From Acidimicrobiia bacterium (GTDB lineage Bacteria; Actinomycetota; Acidimicrobiia; Acidimicrobiales; Acidimicrobilacustridaceae), in assembly GCA_018882825.1 (NCBI GenBank), contig VERC01000030.1:1-14386 (forward strand): a stretch of 14,386 bases of DNA. Direction: 5' to 3'. The position numbers and the translations under genes were made by a program. A model generated the notes under the pieces. The model made no database searches and was not told the DNA's origin. It saw only the letters and a program-made list of their open reading frames with translations. Positions 811 to 7,290 of the stretch are shown here, in pieces (position 1 is the stretch's first letter; every line of letters starts with the position of its first letter).

Positions 811-848
811 TTGGTCGGCATTTCTCCTACGCCGGTAGGATTATTCTC
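811..848 (+). promoter_or_regulatory. predicted promoter of the sufD arm, giving a leaderless transcript
   Basis: TAGGAT at 836-841 fits the actinobacterial -10 pattern TANNNT. It is followed by only 7 bases before the GTG start at 849, and there is no Shine-Dalgarno sequence, so transcription probably starts at or next to the start codon. A possible -35 element is TTGGTC at 811-816, with a rather long 19-base spacer. The -10 box is overlapped by the dyad at 825-840, a position expected for repressor control. Confidence 0.6.
821..840 (+). promoter_or_regulatory. palindromic operator candidate in front of sufD
   Basis: TCCTAC-GCCG-GTAGGA (825-840) is a perfect 6-bp inverted repeat around a 4-base spacer, preceded by TTTC. 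The 18 bases from 821 to 838 recur exactly, in the matching orientation, in front of the minus-strand sufC-sufS-sufU arm (7288 down to 7271). The dyad covers the predicted -10 box. Iron- or cluster-sensing regulators (SufR, IscR/Rrf2 or DtxR types) commonly control suf genes, but the sequence does not resemble the DtxR/IdeR iron box, and no regulator gene is in the window. Which protein binds here is therefore unknown. Confidence 0.68.
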
Positions 849-2099
849 GTGACCTCCCCCCTCACTGCACCCGTGGGTGACGACGCGCTCGCCGCCCGCC
901 GATCGGCTGCCGCCGAGCGCCTCGATGGTGCGGCGCTGCCCGCCACCGACGAGGAGGTGTGGCGCTACAGCCGTGTCGGCGAGCTCGATCCGACCCGCTG
1001 GGGCGCGCCGGCCACCGTCGACTCGGTGCCGGCGGCCGTCGAGGAACTGTTGTCCTCCCTCGGCCATCTGGCCGGTGCCGTGGTGGTGCACGACGGGACC
1101 GTGGTGGCGAGCCGACTCGACGAGCGGTTCGCCGCCGTCGGGGTCTTCGTCGGTCCGGCCGCCGAGCACCCCGAGGGTGTGGAGGCGCTGGGCTCGGTGA
1201 TCGGGGACGGCCCCGACGTGTTCACGGCGCGGAACGACGCCCTCGGCGCCGCTCCACTGCTGGTGCACGTGCCCCGCAGCGTCGTCGTCGACGCGCCCAT
1301 CGTGATCGTGGACTGGATCTCGTCGGCCGACATCGCCGTTCACCCGCGCCTGGTGGTGCGGATGGGGGTCGATGCCGAGGCCACCGTCGTCGAGTGGCGC
1401 GGTTCGGCCGACGTCGCCGCGCTGTCGGTGCCGGTGTGTGAGCTCGACGTCGATCGGGCGGCGCGACTTCGTCACCTCGTGGTGCAGGACCGCGGCCCGC
1501 AGGTGTGGGAGATCGCCACCACCTCGGCCCGGGTCGACACCGACGGATCGGTGTCGGTGGTGCAGGCCGGATTGGGCTGCGAATACGGCCGGTCCCGGGC
1601 CGACTGCCGTCTGACCGGTCGCGGCGCGTCGGGCGATCTCGATGCCGTCTACTTCGCCACCGGCGATCAGACGCTCGACTACCGGACCTTCCAGTGGCAC
1701 GATGCCCCCGACACCACCTCGAACCTGTTGTTCAAGGGCGCGGTCGACGACGACGCCCGTTCGGTCTACACCGGTCTGATCAGGGTGGAGCGCGAGGCTC
1801 GGGGCACCAACGCCTTCCAGACGAATCGCAATCTGAAGTTGTCGGACCGAGCGTGGGCCGAGTCTGTGCCCAACCTCGAGATCGAGACGAACGATGTGCG
1901 TTGTTCGCACGCCTCGACCGTCGGACCGATCGACGAGGATCAGCTCTTCTACCTCGAGAGCCGAGGGGTGCCCACCGAGACCGCCGAGCGATTGATCGTC
2001 GCCGGGTTCTTCGACGAAGTGCTCGAGCACATGTCCGTACCGGCCGTGGCCGCGCTCGTCACCGAGGCCATAGCCCGACGATTGGGGAGCGCTCGATGA
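849..2099 (+). CDS. sufD: Fe-S cluster assembly protein SufD
   Basis: This is a SufB/SufD-family scaffold component, 416 residues long, close to the usual SufD length and shorter than most SufB proteins. In known systems SufD pairs with SufB and binds the SufC ATPase in the cytoplasm to build Fe-S clusters. The C-terminal core is recognisable: NAFQTNRNLKLSD, then LEIETNDVRCSH, then DEDQLFYLESRGV. The CSH motif (C352, H354) matches the Cys/His pair of SufD (C358/H360 in E. coli) and not the SufB arrangement, which supports SufD. The start is GTG at 849, immediately after the promoter with no ribosome binding site. The stop overlaps the Rieske start by four bases (ATGA), implying translational coupling. 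Unusually, no sufB precedes it; the upstream genes are unrelated. Confidence 0.9.
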   Translation: MTSPLTAPVGDDALAARRSAAAERLDGAALPATDEEVWRYSRVGELDPTRWGAPATVDSVPAAVEELLSSLGHLAGAVVVHDGTVVASRLDERFAAVGVFVGPAAEHPEGVEALGSVIGDGPDVFTARNDALGAAPLLVHVPRSVVVDAPIVIVDWISSADIAVHPRLVVRMGVDAEATVVEWRGSADVAALSVPVCELDVDRAARLRHLVVQDRGPQVWEIATTSARVDTDGSVSVVQAGLGCEYGRSRADCRLTGRGASGDLDAVYFATGDQTLDYRTFQWHDAPDTTSNLLFKGAVDDDARSVYTGLIRVEREARGTNAFQTNRNLKLSDRAWAESVPNLEIETNDVRCSHASTVGPIDEDQLFYLESRGVPTETAERLIVAGFFDEVLEHMSVPAVAALVTEAIARRLGSAR

Positions 2100-2410
2100 T
2101 GCTGGAACGAGTGTGTTCGGTGACCGATCTCGCCGATGGTGAGGTTCGACGGTTCGAACTCGGCGATCTGGCCGTGGCCGTGGTGCGCATCGGTACCGAC
2201 TGGTACGCCATCGAGGACCGTTGCTCGCACCAGGACGTCGCGTTGTCCGACGGCGAGGTGCTGGCCGACTCCTGCGAGATCGAGTGTCCCAAGCACGGGA
2301 GCTGCTTCTCGTTGCGCACGGGCGAGGTGGACACCCTGCCCGCCACCAGGCCCGTCGCTGCCTTCGGTGTGCGCATCGACGGTGGCGACGTGTACGTGGA
2401 GGTGGACTGA
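2096..2410 (+). CDS. Rieske [2Fe-2S] ferredoxin of the suf operon
   Basis: This is a 104-residue soluble Rieske protein of the oxygenase-ferredoxin type. The ligand motif is complete: C43-S-H45 and, 18 residues on, C64-P-K-H67, which would hold a [2Fe-2S] cluster through two cysteines and two histidines. Two further cysteines, C60 and C70, flank the second motif. There is no signal peptide or membrane anchor, unlike respiratory Rieske proteins. ATG at 2096 overlaps the sufD stop; the ATG at 2099 is an equally usable start. Actinobacterial suf operons are known to carry such a ferredoxin between sufD and sufC, which fits here. Its role there is not settled: electron donor for cluster assembly or simply a client are both possible. 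The P450 downstream could be a redox partner, but that would be unusual for a Rieske protein. Confidence 0.9.
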   Translation: MMLERVCSVTDLADGEVRRFELGDLAVAVVRIGTDWYAIEDRCSHQDVALSDGEVLADSCEIECPKHGSCFSLRTGEVDTLPATRPVAAFGVRIDGGDVYVEVD

Positions 2411-2411
2411 C

Positions 2412-3191
2412 ATGGGCGAGTTGCGCATCGAAGGTCTGGCCGTCGACGTCGCCGGCCGCCGCATCCTCGACGGGATCGACCTCATCGTGCGATCGGGCGA
2501 GGTGCATGCCGTGATGGGCCCCAACGGCGCCGGCAAGTCGACGCTGTCGCACGTGCTCATGGGTCGCTCGGGGTACGAGGTCGTGGCCGGGTCGGTGACG
2601 TTGGACGGCACCGACCTGTTGGCCCTGCCCACATGGAAGCGGGCCGAGGCCGGGTTGTTCCTGTCGATGCAGTACCCCGTCGAGGTGCCGGGCGTTCGCC
2701 TGGAGCCGATGCTGGTCGAGGCCCTGGCCGCCCGCGGACGTGACACCTCGGTGGTCCATGCCGCGCTGGCCAGTGAGGCCGAGCGAATCGGGCTGGCCGA
2801 GCGTCTGCTCGACCGACCGGTGAACGTCGACCTGTCGGGTGGCGAGAAGAAGCGCAACGAGACGATGCAACTGGCAGTGCTGCGACCCCGGTTCGCCATT
2901 CTCGACGAGCTGGACTCGGGCCTCGATGTCGACGCGCTGCGGGCCTGTTCCCGGCGTGTCGCCGATGCCACCGACGAGTTCGATCTCGGGGTACTGGCCA
3001 TCACCCACTGGACGCGTCTGTTCGAGCAGTTGCGACCCGATGTGGTTCACGTGCTGGCCCAGGGTCGGATCGTGGCCACCGGTGGACCGGAGTTGGCTGA
3101 CGAACTCGAACGCTCGGGCTACGCGGCGTGGGTGACCGAGGCACCCGCACCGGAGCCGGCCGTCGATCCGTTCGCCGATCCGCTGGGCTGA
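2412..3191 (+). CDS. sufC: Fe-S cluster assembly ATPase SufC (first copy)
   Basis: This is an ABC-type ATPase of 259 residues without membrane parts. It would energise the SufB/SufD scaffold in the cytoplasm. All ATPase elements are intact: Walker A GPNGAGKST (36-44), Q-loop Q87, the SufC-specific signature LSGGEKKRNE (141-150), Walker B AILDELDSGLDVDAL (162-176) with catalytic E166, and switch H199. It differs from the second copy in this window at many positions (LSGGEKKRNETMQL against FSGGEKKRNEILQM; ITHWTRLF against ITHYQRLL) and carries a proline/alanine-rich tail of about 18 residues (APAPEPAVDPFADPLG). It looks like the more diverged paralogue. It begins one base after the Rieske stop and clearly belongs to the sufD arm. 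Confidence 0.93.
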   Translation: MGELRIEGLAVDVAGRRILDGIDLIVRSGEVHAVMGPNGAGKSTLSHVLMGRSGYEVVAGSVTLDGTDLLALPTWKRAEAGLFLSMQYPVEVPGVRLEPMLVEALAARGRDTSVVHAALASEAERIGLAERLLDRPVNVDLSGGEKKRNETMQLAVLRPRFAILDELDSGLDVDALRACSRRVADATDEFDLGVLAITHWTRLFEQLRPDVVHVLAQGRIVATGGPELADELERSGYAAWVTEAPAPEPAVDPFADPLG

Positions 3192-4712: not shown

Positions 4713-5195
4713 TCAGTCCCCGCTGGCTTCGTCGATGGCCTGAGACAGGGTGTTCCACGCCAGGGTGGCGCACTTGATGCGCACCGGGAACTTCACCACT
4801 CCTCGCAGTGCCTCCAGATCCCCGAGCTTCACGTCGACCGGGTCGACCTCGTCGTCGACGTCGTGTTCGGCACCCTCGAGCGACGACTCGTGGATCGACA
4901 TCATCGACTTGAACGCGCGGGTCAGTCGTTCGATCTCGTCGACCGTCCTGCCCTTCACGGCCGCCGACATCATCGATGCCGAGGACTGGCTGATCGAGCA
5001 GCCCTGCCCGCCGATGCGGATGTCGTCGACCGTCCCGTCGGCGTCGAGTTGCACGTAGAGCACGATCTCGTCACCGCACAACGGGTTGAAACCCTCCACC
5101 CGCACGGCGGGCGGCACGTCGAGCTCACCGCGGTTCCGAGGGTTGCGGTAGTGGTCGAGGATGATCTCGCGGTAGAGGTCTTCCAGGCCGGGCAT
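4713..5195 (-). CDS. sufU: SufU, zinc-dependent sulfur acceptor of the SUF system
   Basis: This is a 160-residue IscU-fold protein of the SufU subtype. It accepts persulfide sulfur from SufS and passes it to the SufB-containing scaffold. Visible landmarks are NPLCGDE (C40, D42), GGQGCSISQSSASMM (C66) and RIKCATLAW (C142), which correspond to the zinc ligands Cys/Asp/Cys/Cys of SufU. The acidic insertion between C66 and C142 (around GAEHDVDDEVDPVDV) is longer than in IscU and is typical of SufU. ATG at 5195 is chosen because AGGAG lies about 7 bases upstream on this strand and the family's N-terminus LEDLYREIILDHY follows. The upstream extension to 5345 would overlap sufS and is a shadow frame. 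It is the last gene of the sufC-sufS-sufU arm. Confidence 0.95.
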   Translation of the reverse strand: MPGLEDLYREIILDHYRNPRNRGELDVPPAVRVEGFNPLCGDEIVLYVQLDADGTVDDIRIGGQGCSISQSSASMMSAAVKGRTVDEIERLTRAFKSMMSIHESSLEGAEHDVDDEVDPVDVKLGDLEALRGVVKFPVRIKCATLAWNTLSQAIDEASGD

Positions 5196-5238: not shown

Positions 5239-6485
5239 CTAGAGGGCGAAGAACGAACCCGCGGCGTCGAGCGCATCGGCCAGCGCATCGATGTCGGTGG
5301 TGTCGTTGTAGACGTACACCGACGCCCGGGCGGTGGCCCCGACACCCAGCAGTCGCATCAACGGCTTGGCGCAGTGGTGACCGGCTCGCACGCACACCCC
5401 GTGGGTGTCGAGGACCTGCGAGATGTCGTGCGGATGCAGACCGTCGAAGTCGAAGCTGAACACGCCGCCACGTTCGAGCGGATCGGCGGGGCCGTGGATC
5501 CGCAGACGGTCGCCGAACCGTTCACCCAGGGTGCGCATCGTGTACTCGACCAGCGCGATCTCGTGGGCCCGTACCGCCTCCATGCCCACACCTTCGAGCC
5601 ATTCGACGGCCGCGCCCAGCCCGATGATCTCGGCGATGGGGGGAGTGCCGGCCTCGAACTTCCAGGGGAGGTCGTTACAGGTGAAGCCGTCGAGGCGTAC
5701 ATCGCGGATCATCTCGCCGCCGCCCAGGAACGGCGGCATCTCCTCCAGCAGTTCCTCGCGGCCGTAGAGCACACCGATGCCGGTCGGACCGCACATCTTG
5801 TGGCCGGAGAAGGCCACGAAGTCGGCGCCCATGGCCACCACGTCGGTGGCGGTGTGGGGGACCGACTGACAGCCGTCGATCACGCTGATCGCACCGGCAG
5901 CGCGCGCCGCATCGGTGAGCGTGCGCACCGGGTTGAGGGTGCCCAGCACGTTCGACATGGCCGTGGCCCCCAGCAGACGGGCGCCGTCGAGCAGCCGGTC
6001 GAGATCTGTGAGATCGAGTCGACCCTGTTCGTCGAGCGGGATCCAGCGGATCTCGAATCCCACTTCGGCGGCCAGCATCTGCCACGGCACGATGTTGGCG
6101 TGGTGCTCCATGTGGGTGAGCACGATGGCATCACCGGCGCGCAGATTGGCCCGACCCCAGGACTGGGCCACGAGGTTGAGCGACTCGGTGGCGTTCTTGG
6201 TGATGAGCACCTCGGCGGCCGAGCGAGCGCCGATGAAGGCGCGCACGCGTTCCCGGGCGCGCTCCATGCGGTTGGTCGCCTCCTCGGCGATGGCGTACAC
6301 GCCGCGGTGCACATTGGCGTTGCACGTCCGGTAGTAGTCGTCCATGGCGTCGAGGACGGACTGTGGCTTCTGCGATGTGGCCGCCGAATCCAGGTAGACG
6401 ATCGGTCGGCCGTCGACACAGCGCGACATCAGCGGGAACTGCGACCGCACCGGGGCCACCTCGACGGGCGAGATGCCGGCCGCCG

Positions 6486-6489
<4 letters not shown>
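5239..6489 (-). CDS. sufS: cysteine desulfurase SufS
   Basis: This is a PLP-dependent group II cysteine desulfurase of 416 residues, the normal length. It takes sulfur from L-cysteine, leaving alanine, and holds it as a persulfide for SufU. Landmarks: LDSAATSQKP near residue 33, THMEHHANIVPW with H129 stacking on PLP, VIDGCQSVPH with D205, SGHKMCGPTGIG with Schiff-base lysine K231, and RAGHHCAKPLM with catalytic C373. The SGHK and RAGHHCA contexts identify the SufS group and not IscS. The ATG at 6489 overlaps the preceding sufC stop by four bases (ATGA on this strand), giving tight translational coupling. Its stop is 43 bases before sufU. Confidence 0.96.
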
Positions 6490-7238
<749 letters not shown>

Positions 7239-7268
7239 GGCCCGAGTCTAGGTCGCCGGCCGAATTCC
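7239..7268 (-). promoter_or_regulatory. predicted leaderless promoter of the sufC-sufS-sufU arm
   Basis: Read on the minus strand, TAGACT (7250 down to 7245) matches TANNNT, and the GTG start at 7238 follows after six bases. The arrangement parallels the sufD promoter. No convincing TTGACA-like -35 element is visible at 17-19 bases upstream; that region is occupied by the operator. Confidence 0.5.
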
Positions 7269-7288
7269 CACTACCGGCGTAGGAGAAA
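7269..7288 (-). promoter_or_regulatory. operator candidate in front of the second sufC
   Basis: On the minus strand the 18 bases TTTCTCCTACGCCGGTAG (7288 down to 7271) are identical to those at 821-838. The dyad is imperfect here: TCCTAC-GCCG-GTAGTG against GTAGGA in the sufD copy. It sits where a -35 element would be, upstream of the TAGACT box, and only two bases beyond the stop of the hydrolase gene that reads towards it. The exact repeat in matching orientation before two suf arms supports a common regulator. Confidence 0.65.
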
Positions 7289-7290
7289 CC

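Follow-up and report, generated by a model that had tools for sequence, protein, structure and literature searches.

Two convergent suf arms in a genome of the class Acidimicrobiia are preceded by the same 18-nucleotide sequence, which raises the question of whether this repeat is a regulatory site and which protein would act on it. The window considered here is the whole stretch of DNA analysed, 14,386 nucleotides in length; its contig, C196, belongs to a draft genome (G000) of 2.25 Mb in 299 contigs, about 80% complete. We consider it very probable that the repeat is the operator of an autoregulated [4Fe-4S] repressor of the SufR type, encoded elsewhere in the genome, that would close dispersed suf promoters. 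Here SufR denotes a functional type, and orthology with the named SufR proteins is not implied.

The repeated dyad and its promoters

The plus-strand arm of the window consists of sufD (849..2099), the gene of a Rieske-type ferredoxin in the same operon (2096..2410, PF00355) and sufC1 (2412..3191), followed by PCD and P450 genes. The minus-strand arm is the operon sufC2-sufS-sufU, led by sufC2 (6486..7238) and continuing with sufS (5239..6489) and sufU (4713..5195). SufD (TIGR01981), both SufC proteins (TIGR01978), SufS (TIGR01979) and SufU (TIGR01994) score above the NCBIfam cut-offs. Both leading genes start with GTG codons, at positions 849 (sufD) and 7238 (sufC2). Each of the convergent arms has its own sufC gene; of the 24 named loci, 16 show both, and several others are truncated. 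Just upstream of sufD (406-786) there is a gene for a 126-aa cysteine-containing protein that has no Pfam match; 13 of these 24 loci have a homologue in the same place.

The sequence TTTCTCCTACGCCGGTAG occurs without mismatches at 821-838 of the plus strand and 7271-7288 of the minus strand. Both copies are directed into the suf genes and lie just 5' of the first suf gene of their arm, as the initial annotation had it, and the expectation of about 0.003 exact 18-mer pairs given there is of the right size by arithmetic. No third copy was found in the window with up to three mismatches allowed, and there were no matches in 200 dinucleotide shuffles. The perfect dyad TCCTAC-GCCG-GTAGGA described at the sufD copy was found at 825-840. 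The sufC2 copy differs from it by two mismatches, because the conserved unit is not TCCTAC-N4-GTAGGA, as had been proposed, but a longer and different dyad: the 18-mer makes up the central part of a palindrome of 26 bp, ATTNNNNCTAY-N4-RTAGNNNNAAT. The candidate operators are thus ATTTCTCCTAC-GCCG-GTAGGATTATT at 820..845 (plus strand, sufD) and GTTTCTCCTAC-GCCG-GTAGTGGGAAT at 7264..7289 (minus strand, sufC2), each with one mismatch to the 26-bp pattern. The inner core CTAY-N4-RTAG occurs in the window exactly twice, in these two operators. The DtxR/IdeR box is a TTAGG-type palindrome; TTAGG-N9-CCTAA has no exact matches in the window, and the earlier view that the repeat is a different element holds.

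When up to two mismatches were allowed, the 26-bp pattern was found in four places of the source genome, each time with a single mismatch, against two for the reversed pattern used as a control. Apart from the sites upstream of sufD (C196:820) and sufC2 (C196:7264), these are a site upstream of sufB (C71:3638), ending 32 bp short of the ATG, and a site just 5' of a helix-turn-helix regulator gene, denoted sufR, with mrp/apbC in the divergent orientation (C9:4221). All four overlap with or adjoin a hexamer resembling a promoter element; the hexamers and the sufB leader were assigned by eye. At sufD, the -10-like TAGGAT (836..841, plus strand) falls inside the right half-site, and the GTG follows 7 nt later; the predicted overlap of the dyad with a -10 box is borne out. 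At sufC2, the -10-like TAGACT (7245..7250, minus strand) is separated from the upstream operator by 13 bp and from the GTG by 6 nt, so that the operator spans the -35/spacer region; of the 14 sequences displayed, 11 have TAGACT close to the start of sufC2. The sufR gene has TAGAAT at the edge of the operator followed by 6 nt and the GTG codon, and the sufB gene has TACTAT within the left half of the operator and a leader about 40 nt long. The sufD transcript is probably leaderless, and altogether three of the four starts (sufD, sufC2, sufR) look leaderless, in which case the dyad there would not be an RNA element.

Conservation of the dyad in Acidimicrobiia

The suf loci of related genomes were located by tblastn with reference proteins. 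The exact core CTAY-N4-RTAG was observed upstream of 26 of the 28 sufB and 29 of the 30 sufC2 genes collected, and upstream of 24/26 and 19/20, respectively, when the loci brought in by motif search were set aside. For sufD, inspection by eye of 22 readable loci of relatives (23 displayed) found the core in 19; among the exceptions, L018 has the core with one mismatch, L012 has none, and L013 ends at the edge of the displayed stretch. Larger sets yielded lower fractions, 31/49 for sufD and 29/37 for sufC2. The former is lower because some of the upstream stretches stop within the site and others, including L012, truly have no core; the sufC2 set was unfiltered and may include paralogous ABC proteins.

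The dyad extends beyond the core. In 79 core-selected sites (26 at sufB, 29 at sufC2 and 24 at sufD, some of them found by motif searches), the symmetrised outer positions, counted over 158 half-sites, are A in 138, T in 150 and T in 156 for positions 1, 2 and 3, respectively. Some sites are near-perfect palindromes, e.g. GGATTACCACTATctccATAGTGGTAATCC in L017. An initial narrower pattern, CTCCTAYGNCGGTAG, was replaced by the 26-bp dyad: its exact matches were limited to 25 of 61 genomes, and with one mismatch allowed it matched 53/61, the reversed control being about equally high.

The exact 26-bp pattern is present in 131 of 247 genomes of Acidimicrobiia, compared to 4/247 for the reversed pattern. 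In a sample of 396 genomes from the whole phylum, it was found in 18 of 38 Acidimicrobiia and 13 of 358 others; since the reversed control outside the class is 9/358, the dyad in other Actinomycetota is at the chance level. Family f23 has no exact sites, and loss or changed specificity was considered for it and rejected, as 9 of the 11 sufB promoters read in it have the core, the exceptions being G058 and G111. In the small-genome family f40 (42 genomes of about 1 Mb), SufR matches are absent throughout, and the only sufB promoter inspected, that of G064, lacks the core. Exact 26-bp sites are present in 10 of the 42 genomes (reversed control, 3/42) and may be due to chance in AT-rich DNA.

The genes downstream of the sites were considered for 68 distinct exact sites whose loci were read, a part of all those listed. 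Fifty-nine of them precede sufC2 (25), sufR and/or mrp (15), sufB (11), sufD (6) or sufS (2). Of the other nine, one is at an ErpA/IscA-type gene (PF01521, L187), and five are at iron-related genes of family f45, described below. The site in L348 lies at a contig end and is probably a sufD site. Two exact sites fit no reading: the one in L321 lies within an open frame, as judged by eye, and the one in L325 precedes an ORF with weak ATP-grasp-type matches. The motif is therefore neither missing from the suf promoters of relatives nor scattered away from Fe-S genes, and the suggestion of a shared operator is strongly supported by the recurrence of the dyad upstream of sufB, sufD and sufC2 across the class. 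Judging by this conservation, the class-wide candidate operator and its small Fe-S regulon are real, and control by a SufR-type protein is the most likely arrangement.

In several relatives the sufB match is broken by about 1.0-1.2 kb (L007/L062 in G023, L025, L275 in G099, L276 in G169, L277 in G061). These interruptions are possibly inteins, as in Rv1461 (PMC6034842).

A candidate SufR-type regulator and the alternatives

The initial annotation placed the regulator outside the window, and a candidate was indeed found there. The sufR gene (G000:C9:3483-4214, minus strand) encodes a protein of 244 aa with an N-terminal winged helix-turn-helix domain (PF12840 HTH_20, 40.2 bits at a cut-off of 27) and a C-x12-C-x33-C pattern near the C-terminus, formed by C191, C204 and C238, the first pair being 13 apart. 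It matches TIGR02702 SufR_cyano with 30.7 bits (E 2.4e-7), far below the curated cut-off of 178.8. The three cysteines are present in all 50 aligned SufR of Acidimicrobiia; the same columns are occupied in 19 of 20 homologues from other classes, and hence the cysteines are not SufR-specific. The putative recognition helix H(P/A)NVARHHL(D/E) is found in 44 of the 50 class members, and the remaining six differ by one or two residues.

Homologues from other classes differ in setting. The sufB gene is nearby in 5 of 20 loci (three divergent, two with the regulator heading the suf operon), and these five sufB-linked proteins have an unrelated helix at the position of the recognition helix. Proteins with the three cysteines and no suf linkage are numerous, and a similar helix is found in some of them (L307, L312). 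The core was found upstream of none of the 20 other-class homologues and none of five other-class sufB genes. In a tree that contains no named SufR sequences, the C9 protein is drawn, with weak support, beside the SufR of G326 and G399, and the divergent sufB-linked homologues (G373, G363, G304) are placed elsewhere. A sequence search of PDB found no close relative of the C9 protein. A protein search yielded 7387 homologues; among the 120 listed, none is named SufR, and the names given are 'predicted ArsR family transcriptional regulator', 'helix-turn-helix' and 'hypothetical'. A role can thus be proposed for a gene named in the listed sources only 'ArsR family' or 'helix-turn-helix'. In one locus from another actinobacterial class (L307 in G331), a SufR-type homologue lies directly 5' of genes 30-32% identical to SufS and SufU, which are perhaps IscS and IscU.

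Within the class, SufR is present in 188 of 247 genomes at E<=1e-3 and in 170 at E<=1e-30. Among the 30 SufR loci with the best scores, 18 have the core within 200 bp upstream of sufR and 12 have no exact core there; a single intergenic copy lies between the divergent sufR and mrp. The exact 26-mer was found in 115 of the 170 genomes with SufR (E<=1e-30) versus 16 of the 77 without (Fisher p 5e-12, kinship uncorrected). Ten of these 16 belong to f40; with that family left out, the figures are 115/170 versus 6/35 (p 7e-8, likewise uncorrected for kinship). The six non-f40 genomes with a site and no strong SufR match are G134, G199, G225, G232, G264 and G268. Fifty-five of the 170 SufR-bearing genomes have no exact 26-mer, at least some of them because the outer positions vary. 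A contrast set of 30 picked genomes, mostly from distant families, provided 27 readable sufB promoters, 18 of which have the core: 18 of 22 in genomes with SufR and 0 of 5 in genomes without it (p 0.0016). In this set, G111, G058, G077 and G063 have SufR and no exact core at sufB, and G126, with no SufR match, keeps the sufB core with one mismatch.

Taking the SufR proteins of cyanobacteria, Streptomyces and Mycobacterium as the model, we infer that the C9 protein binds the 26-bp sites as a repressor with a [4Fe-4S] cluster as the signal; it likely works like SufR. A dimer would bind ATTNNNNCTAY-N4-RTAGNNNNAAT over the -10 box (sufD, sufB, sufR) or the -35/spacer region (sufC2) and obstruct RNA polymerase at each of the separate suf promoters. 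SufR would also repress its own promoter, a promoter shared with mrp/apbC, the divergently oriented gene of an Fe-S carrier. With a sufficient Fe-S supply, SufR would carry the cluster and repress; upon cluster loss, caused by iron shortage, oxidants or NO, all suf units would be released together. A whole class of actinobacteria, most of them uncultured, would thereby gain a regulator, an operator and a small regulon that are open to testing.

Of the two regulator families that the initial annotation had brought up, SufR and Rrf2, the former is favoured by the site at its own promoter and by co-occurrence, and the latter has little to connect it with the dyad. A regulator of the Rrf2 family, IscR-like in role, is an unlikely owner of the operator, even though such proteins are present in 61 of 61 relatives. 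In three genomes a cysteine-less Rrf2 gene adjoins sufC2 with the site in between (G026, L123; G028, L127; G025, L163), and in three more an Rrf2 gene lies within about 3 kb of sufC2 (G029, L124; G032, L125; G058). Published regulators of Fe-S assembly in this family include IscR and RisR of Myxococcus (the latter in PMC9973013). However, the site between Rrf2 and sufC2 is the ordinary sufC2 site, which is there with or without Rrf2, and the core occurs within 600 bp upstream (less at contig ends) of only 3 of 60 Rrf2 genes, those of G025, G026 and G028 (G047, G050 and the C40 gene of G039 were left out of this count). Moreover, both Rrf2 genes of the source genome are on other contigs and have no core upstream; one of them, on C33, encodes a protein without cysteines, whose close relative in G019 is situated beside genes that read as sulfate assimilation. 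Rrf2 was dropped as the leading candidate once the exact 26-bp search had placed a site between the SufR-like gene and mrp. IscR, RisR and RirA, the latter a regulator of iron uptake, also control Fe-S assembly, but they are a different protein family, and in Acidimicrobiia no Rrf2 gene is tied to the operator class-wide. Other Rrf2 genes of the same clade lie near genes that read as cysteine or sulfonate genes (L121, L119), which we take to be a CymR-like setting.

Binding of the dyad by some other transcription factor is quite improbable. It would account for the one-mismatch core kept at sufB by G126 and for the sites in the six genomes with no strong SufR match, and among regulator genes it was the Rrf2 family that the systematic survey covered. 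On the other hand, among regulator genes it is at the promoter of sufR that the site is repeatedly found, and the presence of SufR and that of the site correlate. Slightly less probable still is that the dyad is no operator but a conserved promoter element, recognised by a special sigma factor or acting as an extended -10, as might be thought since all four sites of the source genome overlap or abut a promoter-like hexamer and the sufD site has a -10-like TAGNNT for its right half. A sigma site, however, would be directional and at a fixed offset, whereas the dyad lies over the -10 at sufD, 5' of a separate TAGACT at sufC2, and shifted and reversed at sufB, and one intergenic copy is situated between the divergent sufR and mrp. 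Finally, chance or a recent local duplication could be invoked for two copies within one 14-kb window, but this has next to no probability given the absence of matches in the 200 shuffles, the difference of the sequences flanking the two copies and the orthologous sites across Acidimicrobiia.

Known SufR systems and the iron genes of family f45

SufR of Synechocystis combines an N-terminal DNA-binding domain with C-terminal cysteines that hold a [4Fe-4S] cluster; it is a repressor of the suf genes and of its own gene (PMC8593673, PMC13421787). The published SufR operator is CAAC-N6-GTTG in cyanobacteria and S. avermitilis and GAAC-N6-GTTG in C. glutamicum (PMC8593673, PMC13421787, PMC11995493). 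The window has no exact match to CAAC-N6-GTTG, in line with the earlier remark that the repeat is not recognisable as a published SufR site. Compared with Synechocystis, the operator here is the core CTAY-N4-RTAG inside a 26-bp dyad, and sufR lies away from the suf genes, divergent from mrp. The half-site and spacer geometry of CAAC-N6-GTTG is like that of ACTA-N6-TAGT, a common form of the core, but the bases differ; this is a case where the regulator lineage and the operator differ together. The SufR systems of Streptomyces avermitilis and Corynebacterium glutamicum are also actinobacterial and have an operator overlapping a -10 region (PMC11995493); there the site is at the sufR promoter, whereas in Acidimicrobiia the suf genes form several units that lie apart, and the sites in front of these units differ in sequence from the published operator.

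Rv1460, the SufR of Mycobacterium tuberculosis, is a suf repressor with cysteines C203, C216 and C244 (PMC6034842). The spacing of 13 between C203 and C216 equals that between C191 and C204 of the C9 protein. Rv1460 is the first gene of the suf operon, whereas the sufR gene considered here is not suf-linked. In G326, where sufR comes first as in the case of Rv1460, CTAY-N4-RTAG is missing upstream of sufR, and AACACTGGTGTTGTGA stands near the start. A literature search that reached few subscription journals found no publication on SufR in Acidimicrobiia; within the literature searched, the operator sequence, the dispersed suf units, the pairing of sufR with mrp and the possible extension to iron supply in f45 are new.

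In family f45, candidate sites are situated beside genes related to iron. In G099, a site was found beside the genes of a siderophore-interacting protein (SIP, PF04954) and of a Peripla_BP_2 protein. SBP_bac_6-type binding-protein genes adjoin sites in G072, G140 and G268; we consider these proteins putatively iron-binding, which is a judgement rather than a family assignment. In G072, a ferritin gene (PF00210) lies across the same site from the SBP_bac_6-type gene, and a site is also present beside an imelysin/EfeO-like gene (PF09375). The SufR match in G268 is weak (E 1e-7). It is conceivable, though we lean slightly against it, that SufR of f45 senses Fe-S status and governs, as a master regulator, cluster assembly together with iron acquisition and storage. 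RirA and IscR fill a comparable combined role in Fe-S and iron regulation elsewhere. If true, the case of f45 would hint at the way in which a repressor devoted to suf can become a regulator of iron.

At the siderophore genes of G099 (L324, about 1501-1580), the SufR-type operator adjoins TTAGGTGAACCTAA, which resembles a DtxR/IdeR box, and thus SufR and DtxR/IdeR may both act at these genes.
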